This document shows, piece by piece, positions 1,240-2,643 of a DNA stretch of 64,000 bases. A program made the translations under genes and the position numbers. Within the stretch, counting starts at the first letter, position 1. Each line of letters starts with the position of its first letter. A model generated the notes under the pieces. The model was not told where the DNA came from, did no database searches, and worked only from the letters and a program-made list of their open reading frames with translations. The stretch is from positions 124,001 through 188,000 of the forward strand of contig JACJNW010000023.1 in NCBI GenBank assembly GCA_014695195.1. The letters run 5' to 3'. The stretch comes from Cyanobacteria bacterium FACHB-DQ100. GTDB taxonomy: Bacteria; Cyanobacteriota; Cyanobacteriia; Leptolyngbyales; Leptolyngbyaceae.

Positions 1240-2139
1240 TCACAATTCAGCAGAACCAAACACCATTTGCACGACAAACGGCTCTCCGCCTTCTGCATGG
1301 TAGCGATCCGCCCAGTTACGAATGATTTCGTCAAGTTCTGCGATCGCGCTTTCCACCCGATCGCTTGGAATATCCAATTCTTCTAACACGCGCATCACCC
1401 GCCCTTGACGCTGTGCCCAGTCCTGCATCAAACGGAAAAACCGCGCTGTGTCCTCGATCATGACGTAGGCGCGTTCTTCGTGGTCATCTGGAGAATAGGA
1501 AGACCGAGTGAGCGCATAAAACGGCATTCCCCAAGGCGAGTCGATGCGGGTGACTGTGCCAGAGTACAAAAGCCGTCGCTTAATATGTTCTGCCAGCGCT
1601 TCACTTAGGGGCATTCGTTGTTCTTGGAGCAGATCTTCTTGCGAGCGAGTATGCAGAAATTCGATCAACTCTAAAAACTGGAAAGAATTGATCAATTGAG
1701 CATCTGGAAGATTAGGCGGCAGTTTTCGTTCGATCAGGCGCTTTTCGTCCGAAGTCAAACTTGTTCCCGGAACCCGCGATCGTCCAGGCAGCCAAGAATA
1801 GTGTTCCATCCAGACGTAGGGCAACTGAATCAAGTACCGAGGTTCTTGAGACCCTAGCATTTTGAGTAATTTGCCTTCACTGAGGGCTTGCCGGACTTCT
1901 TCGACGATCGCTTTGACTCGTTTTGGTTCAATATGGTGCAAATGCCCCGTCATCCGGAGATTGCCATCCTGCTCCAAATACGTCATATAAATCGCACATT
2001 TGGCAGCCGTGGCTGCGGCATCGAGAAATGCACCATGTCGGTGTCCGCCGGTTCGCATAGCGCTAAAGGCAAGATACAACATGATCTGATCGATCGCGCT
2101 AGGGCTGAGCAATTTGATCAGATCGAGGTCATTGGTCAT
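1240..2139 (-). CDS. hetR: HetR, master regulator of cell differentiation
   Basis: DNA-binding transcription factor that drives heterocyst differentiation in Nostocales; it is also kept in many filamentous species without heterocysts. Starting at the ATG at 2139 the protein is 299 residues, the same length as Anabaena HetR as I remember it. That start has AGGGGTGG about 8 bases upstream; a GTG at 2151 would add only four residues. Residues known from Anabaena fall at the same numbers here: Ser152, Ser179, Arg223 and the EELD stretch at 253-256 in the C-terminal hood that binds the RGSGR peptide. N-terminal helices such as [22 protein letters not shown] are also unchanged. A candidate RGSGR peptide gene lies 320 bases upstream on the same strand. 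Identity is very sure; its role in this organism is not known. Confidence 0.98.
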
Positions 2140-2460
2140 ATCAAGCGCCACCCCTGAAACAGGAACACAGTCAAAACAGTCGTAAAGTTTAGTCTACCGT
2201 GAGAGACTGCAATCCGTAATCGCACGGACTTTCTGTAAGGCAAAACTTTATAGTTAGGAAGCCGCAGCCAAGTTTACGTTAATGTGTGTGATGACAACTT
2301 GCTGTCTTGAGCTTGCCCAACTTCAGCCGAAACTCAACAGTCGAATTCTATAGCCTTTGTTTCTAGGATGGAAAGTTATTTCTGATTGGGAAACAAACGT
2401 TAGAAGGGTTGTCTGCGTTCTGAAGAACCTTTTTTCGGAAACCCTTACCGCACGAAAAGA
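2140..2460. promoter_or_regulatory. hetR upstream region between hetR and patX
   Basis: This 321-base stretch has no supported gene. It lies between the patX stop and the hetR start, both on the minus strand, so it should carry the hetR promoter and leader. I could not pick out a convincing NtcA box or HetR palindrome by eye. It is long enough for hetR to have its own promoter as well as read-through from patX. Confidence 0.4.
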
Positions 2461-2643
2461 TTAGAGTTCGTTTGTCACAGCGTCAGTATAAATTCGTCCG
2501 CTCCCTCTATGCTCAACAAACGGCTGAACCTCTTGAGCAACATTAAACTGAGAGGTGGGATTATTGCTATTTTCAGTGTGCTGACTGACAGTAATTACTC
2601 CGACAAGCGAGATAAAAAGCGCAACCAGAACTTGAGCATTCAT
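2461..2643 (-). CDS. patX: PatX-like RGSGR pentapeptide precursor
   Basis: A 60-residue peptide starting MNAQVLVALFISLVGVITVSQ. This looks like a short signal peptide or membrane anchor of about 20 residues, followed by a polar linker. Near the C-terminus it has HRGSGR, encoded on the complement of 2494-2511 (RGSGR at 2494-2508), and ten further residues. RGSGR is the active pentapeptide of PatS and HetN that binds HetR and blocks differentiation. PatX is the family of exported RGSGR/RGTGR precursors encoded next to hetR in filamentous cyanobacteria, including species without heterocysts. Its place directly upstream of hetR on the same strand fits that family. The motif and context are seen directly; processing and activity are inferred. 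No strong ribosome binding site is visible. Confidence 0.88.
   Translation of the reverse strand: MNAQVLVALFISLVGVITVSQHTENSNNPTSQFNVAQEVQPFVEHRGSGRIYTDAVTNEL

Follow-up and report, generated by a model that had tools for sequence, protein, structure and literature searches.

The hetR gene of this window (the whole 64 kb stretch of DNA analyzed) is preceded on the same strand by a small gene for a putative RGSGR-peptide precursor, and the two form an ordinary member of the known PatX-HetR kind. By analogy with Anabaena and Nostoc, we put the probability at roughly 0.7 that they work as the known module does, with patX read from a DIF1-like promoter and its exported peptide inhibiting HetR. 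In the source organism we observe that both genes are present and conserved, that a promoter element precedes patX, that HetR has its peptide pocket, and that the genome encodes HetZ.

The original prediction implied that such a pair would be new outside heterocyst formers. According to two papers that cite Elhai and Khudyakov 2018 (PMC7761841 and PMC11298460), the PatX-HetR pair has the same range as the filamentous cyanobacteria, with or without heterocysts, and the presence of the pair without heterocysts has thus already been described. The pair adds one genome to this known distribution. The more useful outcome is a set of tandem-repeat PatX precursors found in relatives, which offer natural evidence on the cut site and on excision.

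The hetR and patX genes

hetR, the master regulator of differentiation, occupies positions 1240..2139 of the minus strand and encodes a 299-aa protein from an ATG start, with a GTG at 2151 as an alternative. Residues 1–297 match NF009718 (‘heterocyst differentiation master regulator HetR’) with 565 bits, above the curated equivalog cut-off of 489. The flap (S48) and hood domains are both present, Pfam reports Peptidase_S48 (PF03574) and HetR_C (PF18460), and the protein is close by sequence to the crystallized HetR proteins PDB 3qod/4hri. On these matches, its identity as HetR is certain. It is the only hetR match in the source genome, and exactly one match was likewise found in 41 of 42 family genomes. 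Directly downstream lies psaC, encoding the photosystem I iron-sulfur protein (window 827–1072, minus; 187 bits vs a cut-off of 131).

The original prediction described a 60-codon gene with a signal-like N-terminus and HRGSGR, upstream of hetR on the same strand, and this gene, patX, is present at 2461..2643 (minus), 321 nt before the hetR ATG. Its translation, MNAQVLVALFISLVGVITVSQHTENSNNPTSQFNVAQEVQPFVEHRGSGRIYTDAVTNEL, comprises a hydrophobic N-terminus, a variable middle, HRGSGR, and a 10-residue tail. The hexapeptide codons (2494..2511, minus) contain the only RG[ST]GR in the six frames of the window. The best 12-residue mean hydropathy of the N-terminus is 3.0, which makes it signal-like. 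By a simple hydropathy test, 72 of 77 PatX proteins have a hydrophobic N-terminus; the five without a clear stretch count against the module. Searches of Pfam and NCBIfam returned no match for the small ORF, and its motif is followed by ten residues instead of ending the protein as in PatS. Taken together, its features support its assignment as a PatX precursor, orthologous to that of the known PatX-HetR module.

Compared with the filamentous PatX-HetR pair, nothing essential differs: in both, a small precursor carries RG(S/T)GR behind a hydrophobic N-terminus, a DIF1-type element lies close upstream, and the pair occurs without heterocysts. Here patX adjoins hetR, and the element is TCCTGA in place of TCCGGA.

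Candidate promoters and transcription of the pair

In the published DIF1 promoter, TCCGGA at −35 (PMC7377430, PMC6133370) is separated by 17 bases from an extended −10 of unusual type, and heterocyst-specific expression needs both (PMC6133370). In the window, the one-base variant TCCTGA (2697..2702, minus) precedes the patX ATG by 59 nt as a DIF1-like −35 element. It is kept in relatives, standing 57–67 nt upstream of the start codon in nearly all inspected patX loci, and this constant distance counts in favor of the module. Downstream of it, GTAAAGGG (2671..2678, minus) marks the site of a −10-like block with the consensus CNGTAWCAGG. With columns anchored on TCCTGA, this block shows G in 31/34, T in 28/34 and A in 32/34 sequences and is followed by a conserved AATAGAA.

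In ten relatives (L006, L007, L013, L022, L026, L028, L035, L039, L040, and L051), an inverted repeat, e.g. TCCGTATCAG-N10-CTGACACGGA, lies about 20–50 nt downstream of TCCTGA, where it overlaps the −10 and the probable start of patX. It is possibly an operator. The dyad is clear in several relatives and absent or decayed in the window, and we dropped it from the finding.

The original prediction placed both genes in one unit. In a single patX-hetR operon, the amount of HetR would depend on how strongly the DIF1-like promoter drives patX, a reading that we hold tentatively and at somewhat less than even odds. The genes share a strand, no terminator-like site was found between them on the coding strand, and co-transcription has been predicted in Leptolyngbya BL0902 (PMC11298460). 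Against a single unit, the gap is long and variable in other relatives (231–906 nt), and an alignment of four genus members reveals a conserved intergenic block; in the nearest relatives it contains TATAGAAT and a sigma70-like site 213 nt ahead of hetR. This candidate hetR promoter, TTTCCA-N18-TAGAAT (2345..2374, minus), draws its support from conservation, since a consensus scan found one site vs a shuffle mean of 2.7. With a conserved promoter-like block between the genes, hetR may additionally be transcribed from a promoter of its own. The patX-hetR interval of the window contained no NtcA site (GTAN8TAC), HetR site (GGGN5CCC) or DIF1 element, nor was a known RNA element found near either gene.

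Circuit genes and proposed working of the pair

The source genome (5.5 Mb, 99.9% complete) was searched for further circuit genes. The best genome-wide scores for nifH (229.5 bits vs 394) and nifD (42.9 vs 653) fall below the cut-offs, and we infer that these matches are related chlorophyll-synthesis reductases. HetP had no match, and the combination that would mark a heterocyst system, nifH/nifD with HetP, was not found in the source genome. HetZ, by comparison, was identified (NF037963, 649 bits vs 550) at G000:C41:26192-27376 (loci L123/L125), with two HetZ-related proteins elsewhere in the genome. An earlier statement that heterocyst genes are lacking therefore stands for the window and for nifH/nifD and HetP, and falls for the genome as a whole on account of HetZ and its two relatives. 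The predicted PatX precursor does adjoin HetR, and the genome around the pair lacks HetP and any nifH/nifD match above cut-off. With one hetR, one patX, and HetZ, and with neither nifH/nifD nor HetP, this genome is a compact test case for what HetR and PatX do in non-heterocystous strains.

HetZ is also common in filamentous non-heterocystous genomes. Directly after hetZ, in the slot that patU occupies in other species, lies a 329-aa ORF that matched no family and is a candidate patU. HetZ has a sigma region 4/HTH-like stretch at its C-terminus, and hmmscan gave a weak match to the sigma70-ECF model in 14 of 17 HetZ proteins (best 7e-7). Direct recognition of the DIF1 −35 element by HetZ would be consistent with these sequence matches. 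HetZ as a sigma factor is nevertheless speculative: profile comparison with cyanobacterial sigma70 reached only 8–10% probability over the HTH, and the PDB matches included no sigma factor. No HetZ relatives were found in viral contigs.

By analogy with Anabaena, where hetZ is required for patX expression from the DIF1 promoter (PMC7377430), patX would be transcribed from its DIF1-like promoter (TCCTGA at −35) in dependence on HetR through HetZ. Later steps follow Nostoc PCC 7120, in which export of PatX is required, PatP releases the hexapeptide HRGTGR from it by cleavage, and this hexapeptide then binds and inactivates HetR (PMC12756182). The two precursors share a hexapeptide motif and a C-terminal tail; the Nostoc hexapeptide is HRGTGR, used in heterocyst patterning, whereas that of the source organism is HRGSGR. 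Here too, the precursor would be exported by way of its hydrophobic N-terminus and trimmed outside the cytoplasm to an RGSGR-containing peptide, probably HRGSGR. The original prediction that export or cleavage is implied is plausible on this analogy and from the multi-copy precursors of relatives. The peptide would then enter neighboring cells and bind the C-terminal hood of HetR (R223, EELD), and bound HetR would be stopped from DNA binding, which would close a feedback. PatS is an RGSGR peptide inhibiting HetR; unlike the window PatX with its ten-residue tail, it carries RGSGR at its very end and lacks an export signal of the PatX kind.

With nifH/nifD and HetP missing, the fate under control is probably something other than the heterocyst. 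Necridia or filament growth have been proposed as the controlled fate in non-heterocystous species (PMC12756182), and the most likely fate here would be breakage of the filament through necridia, or a comparable decision on filament growth.

Whether HetR is the main target of PatX in such strains is a separate question. Leptolyngbya BL0902 has much in common with the source genome, namely the patX-hetR order, a non-heterocystous habit, no nif cluster and a hetZ, and differs in having three hetR-like ORFs vs one match here (PMC11298460). Among deletion strains of BL0902, loss of both genes looked like loss of patX and not like loss of hetR; in the transcriptome, PatX was not seen acting through HetR and its effects were largely hetR-independent (PMC11298460). 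An inhibitor role outside heterocyst formers is accordingly putative. PatX in non-heterocystous strains could be a signal of its own with a main target other than HetR, its adjacency to hetR being historical or co-regulatory, and both the transcriptomes of patX, hetR and double deletions in BL0902 (PMC11298460) and the loose intergenic gap of 231–906 nt would suit this. We think it unlikely, given what has been kept. The sole strictly kept part of PatX is RGSGR, the exact HetR ligand. On the receiving side, R223, E253, E254, L255, and D256 are all present in the window protein, which upholds the predicted retention of Arg223 and EELD 253–256. Among 88 aligned HetR proteins, the residues reported to bind RGSGR are invariant at R223, E253, L255, and D256 (88/88), with E254 in 76 and a different residue in 12. 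In addition, ectopic PatX of the non-heterocystous Arthrospira blocks Anabaena heterocysts, as cited in PMC7761841. These observations favor the PatX-HetR module.

Motif conservation and tandem-copy precursors

The motif is rare outside patX. The six frames of the 64 kb window contain a single RG[ST]GR, and in 44 relatives the motif occurs 40 times (including five repeats from one locus) in the 1 kb of sense strand before hetR vs four times in 412,798 other positions, an enrichment of about 90-fold. Genome-wide, a degenerate HRG[ST]GR DNA pattern gave one further match, encoding HRGSGS, and no PatS-like C-terminal RG[ST]GR was found in the source genome, the five C-terminal pattern matches lacking RG[ST]GR in any frame. 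For the two patterns scanned, HRG[ST]GR and a C-terminal RG[ST]GR, a second hexapeptide gene was rejected on these grounds.

Conservation of the small gene among close relatives held up. It lies upstream of hetR on the same strand in 7/7 other genus genomes and 36/38 other family genomes, the two exceptions belonging to one genus; position, strand, and motif kept through genus and family all speak for the module. In a wider survey for precursors near hetR, a small same-strand RGSGR ORF was found upstream in 40 of 51 loci, i.e. 40 of the 49 having upstream sequence, as two end at contig ends before that region. The remaining nine have no RGSGR ORF within about 3 kb upstream: L014, L016, L017, L018, L021, and L050 (Oscillatoria/Laspinema/Phormidium), and L023, L045, and L046. 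Two further loci, L109 and L110, have none in 1.5 kb. In such genomes patX may be located elsewhere or missing altogether. At five loci (L012, L020, L038, L039, and L051), the short ORFs upstream of hetR stop exactly at RGSGR, like PatS, and several have no clear hydrophobic N-terminus.

Across 45 motif copies the RGSGR codons vary synonymously and the peptide is always RGSGR. The rest of patX evolves fast, with a dN/dS of 0.43 vs the nearest relative and 0.17–0.82 pairwise in the genus. By its codon pattern, the motif is under protein-level selection. The residue preceding RGSGR is H, Y, N or E, which weighs against the module. This position varies even within the genus, the nearest relative (L002/L081) having YRGSGR in place of HRGSGR. 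That the ORF is not a gene and its motif lies near hetR by chance, as its shortness, missing Pfam/NCBIfam match and fast evolution outside the motif might suggest, is rejected as vanishingly improbable on comparative conservation, given the upstream enrichment, the synonymous-only codon changes in the motif and the promoter element at constant distance.

Several relatives carry PatX precursors with tandem RGSGR units. Four have hetR downstream, with eight units in G177 (L095/L064), five in G224 (L101/L047, the same region), three in G062 (L113), and five in G357 (L067), which belongs to another family. A fifth, G243 (L066), from the family of G357, has six units on a contig that ends before the hetR position. 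TCCTGA lies upstream of each of the five precursors. The units differ at synonymous sites and are thus not a copied assembly error. Tandem-copy PatX goes without mention in the literature found on PatX-HetR, a body of papers that did not include Elhai and Khudyakov 2018.

The repeats argue for a peptide excised from the precursor around RGSGR. In some lineages, PatX could be a multi-copy prohormone whose 3 to 8 tandem [H/Y/D]RGSGR units are each cut out, with peptide yield per precursor under selection and the single-copy PatX of the window as the simple form; for this proposal we see the odds as evenly balanced. If true, the repeats would be direct evidence that the signal is the peptide once cut out and not the entire protein. 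A further locus, L118 (G170), carries one intact unit and one degenerate unit (RGSDR).
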